Below are positions 1,236 through 33,892 of a DNA stretch of 33,892 nucleotides, one piece after another. The notes beneath the pieces were generated by a model, which did not search any database, was not told the origin of the DNA, and saw nothing but the letters and a program-made list of their open reading frames with translations. The DNA is from Bacteroidales bacterium (GTDB taxonomy: Bacteria; Bacteroidota; Bacteroidia; Bacteroidales; Tenuifilaceae). The stretch's first letter is position 1. Each line of letters begins with the position of its first letter. The stretch spans positions 1 to 33,892 of the forward strand of contig JACABB010000015.1 of the NCBI GenBank assembly GCA_013376985.1, read 5' to 3'. The translations under genes were made by a program, and so were the position numbers.

Positions 1236-4058
1236 ATGCCAAATAAAGAATCAAAGAATATAATCGCCATAAGGGGTGCTAGGGTTCATAATCTTAAAAA
1301 TATCAGCCTCGATATTCCAAGAAATAAGCTAATTGTTATTACCGGACTCTCAGGATCAGGAAAATCATCACTAGCATTTGATACGCTTTATGCAGAAGGT
1401 CAACGTCGCTATGTAGAAAGTCTATCATCTTATGCCCGTCAATTCCTTGGACGAGTATCAAAACCCGAGGTTGATCTTATTTCTGGAATCCCTCCGGCTA
1501 TAGCAATAGAACAGCGTGTAAATTCGCGTAACCCAAGATCAACCGTAGGCACATCAACGGAAATATATGATTACTTAAAACTCCTTTTTGGTAGAATTGG
1601 AAAGACTTACTCTCCTATTTCAGGGAAACAGGTAAAAAGACATTCAGTTACCGATGTAGTTGAACATATTTCCTCCTTTGAGGATGAAACAAAAGTGATT
1701 CTTCTAGCACCCATAAACCTTAATGGAAATGGATTGATTAAAGAAAAATTAGCGGAACTTGCCCGAGAAGGTTTTACTAGGGTTGAAGTTGGGGATCAGG
1801 TTATCAGGATTGATGAAGAGAAGACCCGTGATTTGCTAAAAATATCCGGAGCATCTATTAGGTTGATAATTGATAGATTCGCAGTTTCTCACTCCGAAGA
1901 TTTTATTAGCCGATTGGGCGATTCTGTTCAAACTGCATTTGCAGAAGGCGATGGGAAATGCTTTTTAAAGATATATAAAGGAGAAGAGCTGATTGAAGAA
2001 ACCTTCACTAATCGCTTTGAAAGGGACGGAATTAATTTTGAAGAGCCAAATGAACATTTATTTAGTTTCAATAATCCTTTAGGGGCTTGTCCTCGGTGCG
2101 AAGGGTATGGTAAAATCATAGGTATAGACGAGGATCTTGTAATCCCTAATAAAAGTTTATCGCTTTATGAAGATGTTGTAGTCTGCTGGAAGGGTGAATC
2201 GATGAGCTGGTATAAGGATCAGGTAATTAAATTTGCTGATAAAAATGATTTCCCGATTCATAAACCCTACCACAAACTTAGTGAGCAACAAAAACATATT
2301 TTGTGGCATGGAACAAAAGATTTTGATGGAATTTATACGTTTTTCAAACATCTAGAGGAGAAAAAATATAAAATTCAATACCGGGTAATGCTTTCGAGGT
2401 ATATGGGTAAAACCATTTGCCCTGAGTGTAAAGGTGCTAGGTTAAGGAAAGAAGCATCGTATGTAAAGGTTAATGGTTATATAATTCAGGATTTAGTTAA
2501 TAAGCCTGTTTCAGAGCTCATTCAAATTTTTGATAACTTTAAAATAAGCGACCACGATTACAAAATCGCCAAAAGAATTCTCACAGAAATTAAAAATAGA
2601 ATCAACTACCTTAATAATGTTGGTCTTGGGTATTTAACCCTTAATCGTTTATCTACAACATTATCAGGGGGAGAATCCCAACGAATTAACCTATCCACCT
2701 CGCTTGGAAGCAGCCTTGTTGGTTCGCTATACATTCTTGATGAACCTAGCATAGGACTTCACTCACGAGATACTCAACTATTGATAGGTGTATTAAAGGA
2801 TTTACGCGATTTAGGAAACACAGTTGTAGTTGTTGAACACGATGAAGAAATAATTAGATCAGCAGATTACATAATTGATATAGGTCCTTTGGCTGGAAGG
2901 CTTGGTGGTGAAATTGTTTTTCAAGGTACTAAGAATGAGATTGAAAAATCAAAGGATAGCCTTACCGCTAAATATTTAAATAAAACTGAAACCATACCAG
3001 TACCTCATCCACGAAGAAAATGGTCTAATTATATAGAGGTTCAGGGAGCAAGAGAAAATAACCTTAAAAATATCAGCGTAAAGTTCCCACTTAATGTGAT
3101 GACTGTAGTTACAGGTGTTAGCGGCTCTGGCAAATCATCACTAGTGAAAGGTATTCTATACCCAGCAGTATCAAAATTACTTGTTGGAACTGGTGATCGT
3201 CCAGGTCAACACGATCAAATAAAAGGTGATGTACACCTTATTAAAGGTATCGAAATGGTTGACCAAAATCCAATTGGCAGATCATCTCGAAGTAATCCTG
3301 TAACCTATATAAAAGCATGGGACGAGGTACGTAAACTCTTATCGGATCAACCCTATGCAAAACGAAGCGGTTATAAACCCTCACATTTCTCCTTTAATGT
3401 TGAAGGTGGTAGATGCGAGGAGTGCCAAGGCGAAGGTGTAATCACCGTTGAAATGCAGTTTATGGCTGATGTAACATTGATTTGCGAAACCTGCGGAGGC
3501 AAGCGTTTTAAGGAAGATGTACTTGAAGTAAAATACAAAGGAGCTAATGTTTTTGATATCCTTGAGATGACAGTTAGCCAAGCAATTGAGTTTTTCGAAA
3601 GCGAAAAGTCATCAACAGAACGAAAGATTAATGAAAGGCTAAAACCCCTTCAAGACGTTGGTTTAGGGTATATCAAACTAGGACAATCATCAAGTACGCT
3701 TAGCGGAGGCGAAAGTCAAAGGGTGAAATTAGCCTCATTCCTTCAGAAAGATCAGGCAATTCAACCTCATCTTTTCATTTTTGATGAGCCTACAACAGGA
3801 TTACACTTCCATGATATTCGTAAACTTTTGGATGCATTTAATGCTCTCCTTCAAAAAGGTCACAGTTTAATCGTTATTGAGCATAATATGGAGGTTATTA
3901 AGTGTGCGGACTGGGTAATTGATTTAGGATCTGATGGTGGAGATAAAGGTGGTGATTTAGTATTTGAAGGCACTCCCGAGGAACTTTCTAAATCATCGAA
4001 TTCTATTACTGGTGCATTTGCAAAAATCAAATTGGAAGAATTATTGGTAAAAAAATAG
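1236..4058 (+). CDS. uvrA: Excinuclease ABC subunit A
   Basis: UvrA is the damage-sensing ATPase of nucleotide excision repair. It works as a dimer with UvrB, scans DNA for bulky lesions and loads UvrB. The 940-residue length is normal. The first Walker A is GLSGSGKSS at residues 37-45; the second, GVSGSGKSS, begins the C-terminal ABC module. Both LSGGESQR signatures are present. Zinc-finger cysteine pairs are visible as CPRC and CPEC in the N-terminal half and as CEEC with CETC in the C-terminal half. The gene stands alone, with a -7-like element upstream; its stop codon lies inside the stem of its terminator. Confidence 0.97.
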
Positions 4059-32414: not shown

Positions 32415-32431
32415 TATCGCATTTTGCGATA
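32415..32431. promoter_or_regulatory. Palindrome upstream of the cytochrome operon
   Basis: Seven-base arms TATCGCA and TGCGATA around TTT. It lies about 70 bp upstream of the candidate -7 element, so a distant activator site is possible. No known regulator motif was recognised. Confidence 0.4.
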
Positions 32432-32490: not shown

Positions 32491-32512
32491 AGCGAAGCTT
32501 TACGGCTTCGCT
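32491..32512 (-). terminator. Terminator downstream of the DUF6261-like gene
   Basis: Perfect 8-bp arms AGCGAAGC/GCTTCGCT with a six-base loop; the minus strand continues with T5. It lies about 170 bases past the gene's stop codon, beyond the MITE-like element, which suggests that the element inserted between gene and terminator. Confidence 0.8.
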
Positions 32513-32540
32513 CAAACAAAATATTACCACTAATTAAAGT

Positions 32541-32680
32541 CTGTCCATAAACTTAGCCAAAAGCGTCATTGCAAGCGTTTTTTGCGAAGCAACCGAGCTT
32601 GCGAGTTCGATGAAATCAATCTACTGATTTTCAACATAAGGATTGCTTCACTTCGTTCGCAATGACGAGTTTACGGACAG
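32541..32680. mobile_element. 140-bp MITE-like inverted-repeat element
   Basis: The ends are inverted repeats: CTGTCCATAAACT (32541-32553) and AGTTTACGGACAG (32668-32680), one mismatch in 13. Inside, CGTCATTGC (32564-32572) and GCAATGACG (32659-32667) start second arms that continue as GCGAAGCAA against GGATTGCTTC. It has no coding capacity. The GTCATTGCGAA-GAAGCAATC core resembles palindromic repeats scattered through many bacterial genomes. It ends three bases before the stop codon of the next gene. Clear target-site duplications were not seen. Confidence 0.65.
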
Positions 32681-32683
32681 CCC

Positions 32684-33442
32684 CTAATTAACCGATTCCT
32701 GCTCACTAGCAACCTCATGGGATGTGGAGCTCTTTTTCTGACTCACCGAGCGTGTTTCATTTGCCTTTACCGTAGAGAGCGAACGGACAATCAGCTCGCT
32801 AAGCACAGTTTCAAGATCCGTAAGATCGCGTGTAGGTGCGGATGAGTTAAGCAGCGAGATGAACGTGAAAAGCGATTTTAACGAGTTTGTTAACGAAGGA
32901 CGCACATCCCAGATTGTGGGCTCGTTGCTTGGAGCGTTCTTTACGTTCTGGTGGGAGATCTCCTCAAAAGCCCTCTGATCGGCTTCCAGCTCGGCAAGGA
33001 GCTCCTCGGCGTTTAGGAAAGTGATCTCGGTAGCATATTTGCCCCGCAGCTCGGAGGTGATATTATTTATAGCAGCCGATTTTGCCTTGTAGCCCATTGT
33101 GGTAGCACTCCACCCATGACGACGGATTACCTCAAGTATTTTGGTTGCTGTAGCCGACCACCCTACCTTAGTTCGGTAGCTCATTGCCTCCGAGTGGGTG
33201 CGTAGCACCATGAATGAGGCATTGCGGAGGGCATCCTTCTCGGAAAGCTGCGGGGTGTAGGGATTCTTTTTGGCACGCTCAAGGGCATTCTGGTAAAGGG
33301 AAAGCTGCTGGCTGGCCTTATCCAGAAAAGGAACTAACGATGGAATTCGTGATCGTTTCTCCTCTACAATGGTTAATGACCTCTTTGCAAATGTAAAAAA
33401 CTCATCGCTTGGGAAAAGTGAAAAATTTGAAGTACTAATCAT
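32684..33442 (-). CDS. Helical protein resembling DUF6261 family, 252 aa
   Basis: A cytoplasmic, mostly alpha-helical protein without signal peptide. From memory it resembles the Bacteroidota DUF6261 family; this was not verified. Visible features are an N-terminal helical part (FFTFAKRSLTIVEEKRSRI), a central part with HSEAMSYRTKVGWSATATKILEVIRRHGW and a second, related GWSATTMGY, then acidic helices (ELLAELEADQRAFEEI) and a polar Ser-rich tail. No catalytic motif stands out. The gene looks clearly more GC-rich than its neighbours (many GCN, CTC, CGG codons), hinting at separate ancestry. It diverges from a structured leader and a 42-bp tandem array, with 98 bp between its start and the leader. 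Confidence 0.75.
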   Translation of the reverse strand: MISTSNFSLFPSDEFFTFAKRSLTIVEEKRSRIPSLVPFLDKASQQLSLYQNALERAKKNPYTPQLSEKDALRNASFMVLRTHSEAMSYRTKVGWSATATKILEVIRRHGWSATTMGYKAKSAAINNITSELRGKYATEITFLNAEELLAELEADQRAFEEISHQNVKNAPSNEPTIWDVRPSLTNSLKSLFTFISLLNSSAPTRDLTDLETVLSELIVRSLSTVKANETRSVSQKKSSTSHEVASEQESVN

Positions 33443-33470
33443 AGCTTTAAGAATTTTTGGTTAAACATTG

Positions 33471-33493
33471 CGTTTACTGCTGCCAGTAAAACG
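33471..33493. promoter_or_regulatory. Inverted repeat upstream of the DUF6261-like gene
   Basis: CGTTTACTG and CAGTAAAACG pair with one bulged A around a CTGC loop. It lies 29-51 bases before the ATG and could be an operator or a leader hairpin. Confidence 0.4.
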
Positions 33494-33527
33494 TGATTTA
33501 ATGATAAAATGGTATTTTAAAGGTTGA

Positions 33528-33535
33528 TAATTTTG
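33528..33535 (+). promoter_or_regulatory. -7 element TAATTTTG firing toward the repeat array
   Basis: An exact TAnnTTTG match on the plus strand. Transcription would start near 33541, at the beginning of a foldable stretch, and run into the array. No clear -33 TTTG was found. Confidence 0.45.
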
Positions 33536-33540
33536 CAGGG

Positions 33541-33683
33541 ATATTTCCGTACCCTTCCGATGCTGGTAGGGTGTTTCCCACGGTCTAGCACAGACCAAAA
33601 GTTATGCCAATAATAGAAATGTATGCTATTCGAAATTGTTTAGATGCTACCTATAAGAGAATTAATCCGATTTCAAGCCGTTT
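33541..33683 (+). ncRNA. Candidate structured leader of the repeat array
   Basis: Downstream of the -7 element the sequence folds on paper. CCGT (33547-33550) pairs with ACGG (33580-33583), enclosing ACCCT/AGGGT (33551-33555 with 33568-33572). A second hairpin, GGTCT-AGCAC-AGACC, spans 33582-33596. The two share bases 33582-33583, so they may alternate. Downstream is an ATG (33604) whose frame enters the array. Whether this is an untranslated RNA or an mRNA leader cannot be decided from one sequence. Confidence 0.35.
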
Positions 33684-33892
33684 GGGCGGAACTTCTTTCT
33701 CCGTGGGGTCGTTCCCAAAAGTTTTGGGCGGAGCTTCTTTCTCCGTGGGGTTGTTCCCAAAAGTTTTGGGAGGAGCTTCTTTCTCCGTGGGGTTGTTCCC
33801 AAAAGTTTTGGAAGCACTTCTTTTTCCGTGGGGTTGCTCCCAAAAGTTTTGGGAGGAGCTTCTTTCTCCGTGGGGTTGTTCCCAAAAGTTTT
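33604..33892 (+). other. Open frame entering the array, no stop before window end
   Basis: From ATG 33604 the plus strand stays open for 96 codons to the window edge. The first 26 residues (MPIIEMYAIRNCLDATYKRI and on) are non-repetitive; then 14-residue repeats follow, such as GGASFSVGLFPKVL. In the fourth unit a one-base-shorter copy shifts the repeat to another frame (LLSPWGCSQKFWEE type). The frame is incomplete at its 3' end. Because one unit is open in every frame, an open frame here is weak evidence for a protein. Confidence 0.3.
33684..33892. repeat. Tandem array of 42-bp units, running off the window
   Basis: Five contiguous units start at 33684, 33726, 33768, 33810 and 33851. Units 1, 2, 3 and 5 are 42 bp and nearly identical; unit 4 is 41 bp with several changes. 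A degenerate remnant precedes unit 1 (33671-33683). Each junction contains CCCAAAAGTTTTGGG or a close variant, seven-base inverted arms around one base. There are no spacers, so it is not a CRISPR array. The last unit ends exactly at the window edge, so the true copy number is unknown. Confidence 0.95.

Follow-up and report, generated by a model that had tools for sequence, protein, structure and literature searches.

Genes of the uncharacterised family DUF6261 are usually accompanied by a tandem array of 41-42-bp units that lies just upstream of them. Among all retained DUF6261 genes, an array of this class was found at most 600 bp upstream in 73 of 103 cases and downstream in 4 of 103 (p ~1e-25, relatedness uncorrected), and the pairing of gene and array is supported as a conserved association. 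The geometry of the repeat stays constant while its sequence changes, which suggests that the pairing is a protein-DNA partnership so far undescribed. In the open-licence PubMed Central literature that was searched (subscription papers lay outside this scope) the pairing is not described, and the one paper found there to mention DUF6261 is on another subject, to judge by its title.

The window, i.e. the whole stretch of DNA that was analysed, comprises 33,892 nucleotides of a Bacteroidales genome (GCA_013376985.1, contig JACABB010000015.1). An earlier note on this DNA had read a gene and a neighbouring array at its right end as a possible two-part system in which the protein acts on the repeat DNA or its RNA; the association holds across homologues, and the action of the protein on the repeat is taken up below as a proposal. 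The window protein matches the DUF6261 profile (PF19775) with 66.6 bits against a cut-off of 27, over profile positions 1-149 of 154, which bears out the earlier description as DUF6261-like, and its gene is indeed richer in G+C than the window (0.486 and 0.363, respectively). Besides DUF6261, no Pfam match above cut-off was found in the protein, neither a transposase nor a nuclease. Three neighbours in the window were assigned by Pfam to a DUF5777 beta-barrel, a haem-binding-like protein (below cut-off) and a YceI protein.

The array is head-to-tail and spacer-less, as had been described, with 92% matches between its units. It is followed by 100 N (C7:33893-33992 of the contig), beyond which the 42-bp repeat picks up again; the possible genomic junction proposed earlier is therefore an assembly (scaffold) gap inside the array. 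Dyads in the window array are centred at ~33763, ~33805 and ~33846, and, whichever strand is taken, the array forms a more stable fold than its shuffles (z -2.87 and -3.12), as is to be expected from its palindromes. Looking for a CRISPR, we found no spacers in the window array, and the window gave no Rfam match.

The spacer between array and gene is conserved across five copies of the window-gene subfamily and presumably holds the promoter of the DUF6261 gene. A foldable leader had been proposed on the opposite strand, but 33541-33660 (+) folds no better than expected by chance (z -0.40, 62 of 200 shuffles folding as well) and a structured leader was rejected. The Bacteroidetes -7 consensus is TAnnTTTG. 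The proposed -7-like element, TAATTTTG at 33528 (+), does fit this pattern, but 26 matches to the pattern are found on the window's plus strand, one in every 1.3 kb or so, and by eye an element of the TAATTTTG type is missing at the same place in the second module copy of the same genome. Beyond the other end of the gene, a hairpin with a T run is, from its sequence, a probable terminator of the DUF6261 gene. Of the five other copies compared, four, among them a gene-less copy on C25, were seen by eye to have the palindrome TATCGCATTTTGCGATA downstream as well; it was absent after the G002:C21 copy within the stretch compared. Directly 3' of the DUF6261 stop codon lies a MITE-like element of ~147 bp (window 32537-32683) with the ends GTCTGTCC.../...GGACAGCCCC and a palindromic body with GTCATTGC/GCAATGAC; it is missing from the sister copies compared.

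Table 1. Features of the DUF6261 module and its downstream flank in the window.
Feature	Position	Strand	Basis
Tandem array, 42-bp unit, 5.1 copies inside the window	33681..33892		TRF; runs on to ~C7:34060 past the gap
Spacer between array and gene, 238 bp	33443..33680	-	Alignment of 5 copies
DUF6261 gene, 252 aa, all-helical protein model	32684..33442	-	ORF list, PF19775, structure model
Hairpin, then T run, on the gene strand	32491..32513	-	Read from sequence; common to sister copies
17-bp palindrome TATCGCATTTTGCGATA	32415..32431		Read by eye

The first DUF6261 genes found, in the window's own genome and three relatives, all had an upstream array with a period of 41-42 or about twice that (14 of 14). 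In a second set, fetched after the pattern had been noticed, the array class lay at most 600 bp upstream at 25 of 40 loci and downstream at 2 of 40; with the full count given above, arrays of about 42 bp are commoner near homologues than in controls, which is the comparison that the earlier note had proposed. The 103 retained genes derive from 112 detected frames, nine of which were dropped (four short frames, three with short flanks and two on phage contigs); L075, a match below the DUF6261 cut-off, was never picked up by the profile. They are not independent of each other but form 68 clusters at 50% identity, and in 50 of these 68 at least one array with a 40-43-bp row is present. The 30 genes without a called array had their best upstream self-match at lag 40-43 in 18 cases, compared to 7 downstream, so in many of them the array seems to have decayed; three of these 18 self-matches are weak (identity ≤0.53). 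The other twelve of the 103 genes that lack an array have a best lag other than 40-43. Loci from named records, partly from the same genomes as the main set, had the array upstream in 19 of 32 cases and downstream in none of the 32. This set held 39 loci, seven of which were dropped for short flanks, and includes Bacteroidales, Paludibacter, Prolixibacteraceae, Prevotellaceae and Porphyromonas.

Two loci have unusual arrangements. In Prevotella nigrescens (NZ_CP082843.1, L082:5169-5600) the upstream array (TRF period 120) carries the annotation of a hypothetical protein and adjoins the DUF6261 gene. L042 carries, besides its upstream array, two 43-bp arrays downstream of the DUF6261 gene (gene-sense 2149-2342 and 2962-3243) that share a different unit.

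DUF6261 was detected in 46 of 393 genomes sampled from the order, 7 of 395 from the class and 12 of 395 from the phylum (11 above cut-off), the window's own genome being counted in each sample, and was absent from 14 control genomes. Its distribution is patchy, and G602 and G685 hold as many as 38 and 33 copies, respectively.

The period of the arrays is narrowly set. Among 70 arrays selected as having units of 40-43 bp, the unit is 41 bp in 34, 42 bp in 32, 40 bp in three and 43 bp in one. Without selection on period, the best upstream array belonged to the 41-42 class or a multiple of it in 71 of 74 genes, these 74 being the genes that have any upstream array of period ≥20. The helical repeat of B-DNA is 10.4-10.5 bp; the mean unit of 41.5 bp is 4 x 10.4 bp and thus spans four helical turns. 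Dyad symmetry, assessed by column shuffles that keep the periodicity, was found with z >2 in 83% of the 70 arrays (median 4.7), and 28 of 70 were significant (p <0.05) by simple base shuffles. In 15 of the 70, the two best local dyads are separated by exactly half a unit, and direct identity at a lag of 20-21 is close to background (0.28 versus 0.24). From the dyad symmetry and the second dyad at half a unit, many units therefore read as two half-units of ~21 bp placed head to head. Since open frames cross the arrays in several frames, the array was also considered as coding sequence; units of 41 bp, which cannot keep frame, occur in about half of the protein clusters, and the coding reading was therefore set aside.

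Unit sequence turns over between loci while position, period and dyad symmetry persist. Array alignment scores were 37-228 for the seven protein pairs of at least 75% identity, whereas pairs below 45% identity had a median of ~16 and a maximum of 40. Recognisable kinship of the arrays is lost below ~60% protein identity, with one exception at 52%; in L021 and L023, for instance, the proteins are 51% identical and the units unrelated. A common sequence motif was rejected, as the best 6-mers were shared by 7 of 76 distinct units, where the null reached up to 8. At the protein level the family is under purifying selection, with dN/dS of 0.08-0.25 in 14 gene pairs, some of them overlapping.

The structure model of the window protein reached a mean pLDDT of 85.2 from an alignment of 28 sequences. 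That of a relative, L013, was built from 92 sequences and is all-helical with nine helices (mean pLDDT 94.7, pTM 0.73). Neither model gave a PDB fold match at E ≤0.001, the L013 model gave no match to a viral protein fold, and the best sequence match to a solved structure had E 0.056. No DNA-binding domain or fold was recognisable by Pfam or the PDB fold search; the net charge of 70 array-bearing proteins has a median of -3, so that DNA binding is not obvious from composition.

Similar layouts are known from type III toxin-antitoxin systems, and one alternative is an RNA-protein system of that design, in which the repeats are transcribed and bind the DUF6261 protein as RNA. In the cited passages, ToxIN, CptIN and TenpIN have an array upstream of a single protein gene, with the unit length kept as the sequence diverges, and ToxI consists of units of 34-36 nt that form RNA pseudoknots (PMC5086642). 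The DUF6261 arrays likewise lie upstream, have ~2-9 copies and combine a fixed unit length with a variable sequence. Their gene-sense strand is A-rich (AT skew 0.10; AACAA in 14 of 76 units, TTGTT in 2 of 76), a polarity that a symmetric DNA site leaves unexplained. On either strand, their folds (73 arrays) are more stable than those of period-preserving shuffles, and the raw folding energy is lower on the antisense strand in 48 of 76 (p 0.03), which could weakly support a transcript in the direction assumed by the earlier note. Against shuffles of the same composition, however, the strands do not differ (mean z -3.66 for sense and -3.31 for antisense, sense lower in 38 of 73, p 0.15). No wobble excess was found within dyads (83 G-T versus 98 A-C mismatches) or within defined stems (55 versus 52), nor were compensatory double changes in excess (32 versus 34.3 after shuffling). 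The centres of 26 of 62 stems, from 59 arrays, measure 0-2 nt and are too short for an RNA loop, and the period equals four turns of B-DNA. In contrast to the type III repeats, the DUF6261 unit measures 41-42 bp, is often a near-perfect palindrome and bears no sign of RNA selection. Pfam and PADLOC revealed no endoribonuclease of the ToxN/CptN/TenpN type, the all-helical model has no PDB match at the E-value given above, and two DUF6261 proteins and two of a second family (see below) matched no known defence system in PADLOC. RNA hairpins were rejected on the wobble, compensatory and strand tests, although the A-rich sense strand and the stabler antisense strand point the other way, and we regard the RNA-protein system as decidedly unlikely. 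On balance, we take the array to act as double-stranded DNA whose two-fold sites face the same side of the helix.

Random 20-kb regions, searched like the gene flanks, served to estimate how frequent such arrays are in the background. Arrays of the 41-42 class were absent from 400 kb of such regions in four genomes without detected DUF6261 and from 320 kb in G007, G060, G1049 and G002. One was found in 80 kb of G476, and 400 kb of the window's own genome yielded a single non-coding array of 42 bp, another one called by the script being coding on inspection. The high-copy genomes held 16 arrays per 400 kb (G602), 8 per 200 kb (G685) and 4 per 200 kb (G625). Where DUF6261 frames fell by chance in the random regions, four of five had a class array within 1 kb. 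Of 30 random-region arrays from G602, G685, G625, G000 and G476, four were near DUF6261, two near the second family (searched for genome-wide except in G476) and 24 near neither, so the array does not always need a gene in cis, or the gene has since been lost, which weakens the case for a strict pairing in cis. Among the four gene-linked arrays from these regions, two had no clear dyad symmetry (z 0.1 and 1.9).

The 24 orphan arrays (in L125-L141, L152, L183 and L216-L234) were divided by a threshold on direct 21-bp repetition into 12 with and 12 without it; dyad z exceeded 2 in 7 and in all 12 of these, respectively. Mostly, they share little sequence with gene-linked arrays. A third protein family at the orphan arrays was rejected, as their 67 neighbouring frames gave one weak match to the DUF6261 profile (E 0.0014) and one pair of related neighbours. 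The orphan arrays L128:17559-17679 and L183:13850-13939 come from two genomes assigned to different families, and each closely follows the end of a gene; the two genes are related (49% identical) and presumably resemble LD-carboxypeptidases.

These background counts bear on the view that the array is a passive minisatellite, i.e. that intergenic regions of Bacteroidota grow 21/42-bp repeats through replication or topology and that the DUF6261 genes merely happen to be there. Non-coding arrays of 21 or 22 bp were present in three of the four DUF6261-negative genomes sampled, and 13 of the 16 arrays sampled in G602 were near neither family, as this view would have it. It is hard to reconcile with the gene-array association: the polarity is upstream (73 versus 4 of 103), the 41-42 class is missing from the 400 kb of DUF6261-negative genomes, and the second family has the opposite array placement and symmetry. 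We therefore hold it to be very unlikely.

The window's own genome has four DUF6261 genes. The copy nearest to the window gene, 17 kb off, encodes a protein 80% identical to the window protein and has its own array of 41-bp units; the protein encoded on C10 is 22% identical and a 42-bp array with a different unit lies upstream of its gene; the fourth gene, on C3, likewise has an upstream array. On G000:C25 of the same genome, an array of the window type lies beside only the 3' end of a gene, i.e. the module without its gene. In G002, three copies of array and gene are 93-94% identical over ~1.4-1.6 kb and differ in their array-side neighbours; the module is therefore copied as a block in this genome. 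The window copy and the G002:C21 copy share the array-side neighbour gene, and this pair may therefore have been inherited in place. The DUF6261 gene on C10 appears to be interrupted by an insertion of ~215 bp (L012:3949-4165), and stretches related to this insertion occur in G002:C20 and G002:C2.

Block copying raises the question of a mobile or selfish element, in which the array would be a recognition end or a by-product of copying, the DUF6261 protein would help the module to spread, as in RAYT/REP systems, and orphan arrays would be copies or remnants. The near-identical G002 copies among different neighbours, the gene-less remnant on G000:C25, the patchy distribution with 38 and 33 genes in G602 and G685 and the lack of a nearby gene at 24 of 30 sampled arrays all agree with this. 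RAYTs are described as transposases related to IS200/IS605 and flanked by two inverted REPs; the palindromic repeats are both gene-linked and dispersed, and protein and repeat change together, which recalls DUF6261 (PMC2817692). However, the window protein has no IS200/IS605-type or other transposase domain and no nuclease domain above the Pfam cut-off, the array is one-sided at most loci, and repeat sequence is mostly not shared between arrays; unlike REPs, the orphan arrays mostly have no sequence in common with the gene-linked ones. By eye, the copies compared show no clean element ends, sharp right boundary or terminal inverted repeats, complementary changes are not in excess, and the window and G002:C21 pair may have stayed in place. 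All in all, a mobile element seems unlikely.

An origin from a phage or plasmid was rejected as well. The window protein had no plasmid match, and L013 had one (a Prevotella nigrescens replicon), together with two unverified faecal phage contigs and no match in one IMG/VR scan. Another repeat of the Bacteroidales, the minisatellite-MITE BrickBuilt of Porphyromonas gingivalis, is similarly an intergenic spacer-less tandem array; according to the cited passages one 23-nt unit occurs 19 times in one genome, within a MITE that has a leader and tail, and no partner protein family is named in them (PMC4596501). The DUF6261 loci differ from it: in place of a 23-nt unit with a conserved leader and tail at many loci, most of them have their own 41-42-bp unit.

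The reading that we prefer, and to which we give an even chance, is a two-part cassette in which a symmetric oligomer of the DUF6261 protein binds its own phased array as double-stranded DNA, beside its own promoter. The array, lying in cis just upstream of the gene, would work as double-stranded DNA. Many of its four-turn units consist of two inverted halves of ~21 bp, so two-fold binding sites would recur on one face of the helix. Along these sites the protein would assemble as a symmetric oligomer, and a phased nucleoprotein complex would form next to the DUF6261 promoter. The direct effects would probably be autoregulation of the DUF6261 gene and the seeding of a local complex, by analogy to SopB on sopC. 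We infer the binding of the array, the oligomeric state and any cellular role of the protein from the observed association and geometry.

Proteins of the ParB type have known domains and a ParA partner, and no match of DUF6261 to a ParB-type centromere-binding protein was found by Pfam, PDB sequence or fold. A close likeness is to the F-plasmid centromere sopC (parS-F), which the cited passages describe as twelve tandem units of 43 bp with 16-bp inverted repeats that are bound by the cognate protein; its units are nearly as long as those of DUF6261 (43 versus 41-42 bp) and both carry inverted repeats or dyads (PMC6238139). In contrast to SopB, DUF6261 has no domain or fold match, its units often contain two dyads, its chromosomal copies are many (38 in G602) and its arrays are mostly unrelated in sequence. 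A DNA partner with conserved geometry and free sequence would be an unusual form of protein-DNA co-evolution, and a protein with its cognate 42-bp unit offers a direct experimental handle on an uncharacterised family. If binding is confirmed, the paralogous pairs in one cell would constitute a natural collection of insulated DNA-binding specificities.

Pairing with an array is also a way to find further such families, as is shown by a second uncharacterised family that was first met beside two G602 arrays. Its members are ~250 aa long, typically start with MxSTSETGHAKN, and have no Pfam family matched by more than one of 17 members. They are located in L134:471-1214, L140:13580-14401, L235-L257 and L298-L325 and, in the window's own genome, in C67:94569-95303 and C49:14779-15510; the C49 copy has no array. 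In a first set (23 matches, with one fragment left out and one gene not located) an array of 21/42 bp lay downstream in 17 of the 21 loci with a located gene. A further set gave 17 of 27 downstream and 4 of 27 upstream, one of 28 loci having been dropped. The arrays mostly lie ~25-320 bp downstream of the gene. Those of the first set are direct repeats of 21 bp (median identity 0.68 at lag 20-21) in which dyad symmetry is slight (median z 1.1; 24% of 17 exceed 2).

A comparison of the two family profiles gave a probability of 71% over 97 columns, which is suggestive of a distant homology between DUF6261 and the second family. They might then be one superfamily of array-bearing proteins with a half-unit of ~21 bp (two helical turns) as building block, arranged head to head upstream in DUF6261 and head to tail, mostly downstream, in the second family. 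Its paralogues, most of them with their own unit sequence, would resemble insulated nucleoprotein switches of the centromere type, in which the geometry is inherited and the sequence is free; we put this wider reading at somewhat below an even chance. If it holds, dozens of such paralogues can coexist in one genome, as the 38 DUF6261 genes of G602 illustrate. One member of the second family, L237, has rows with a period of 20-22 upstream in addition to its downstream array.
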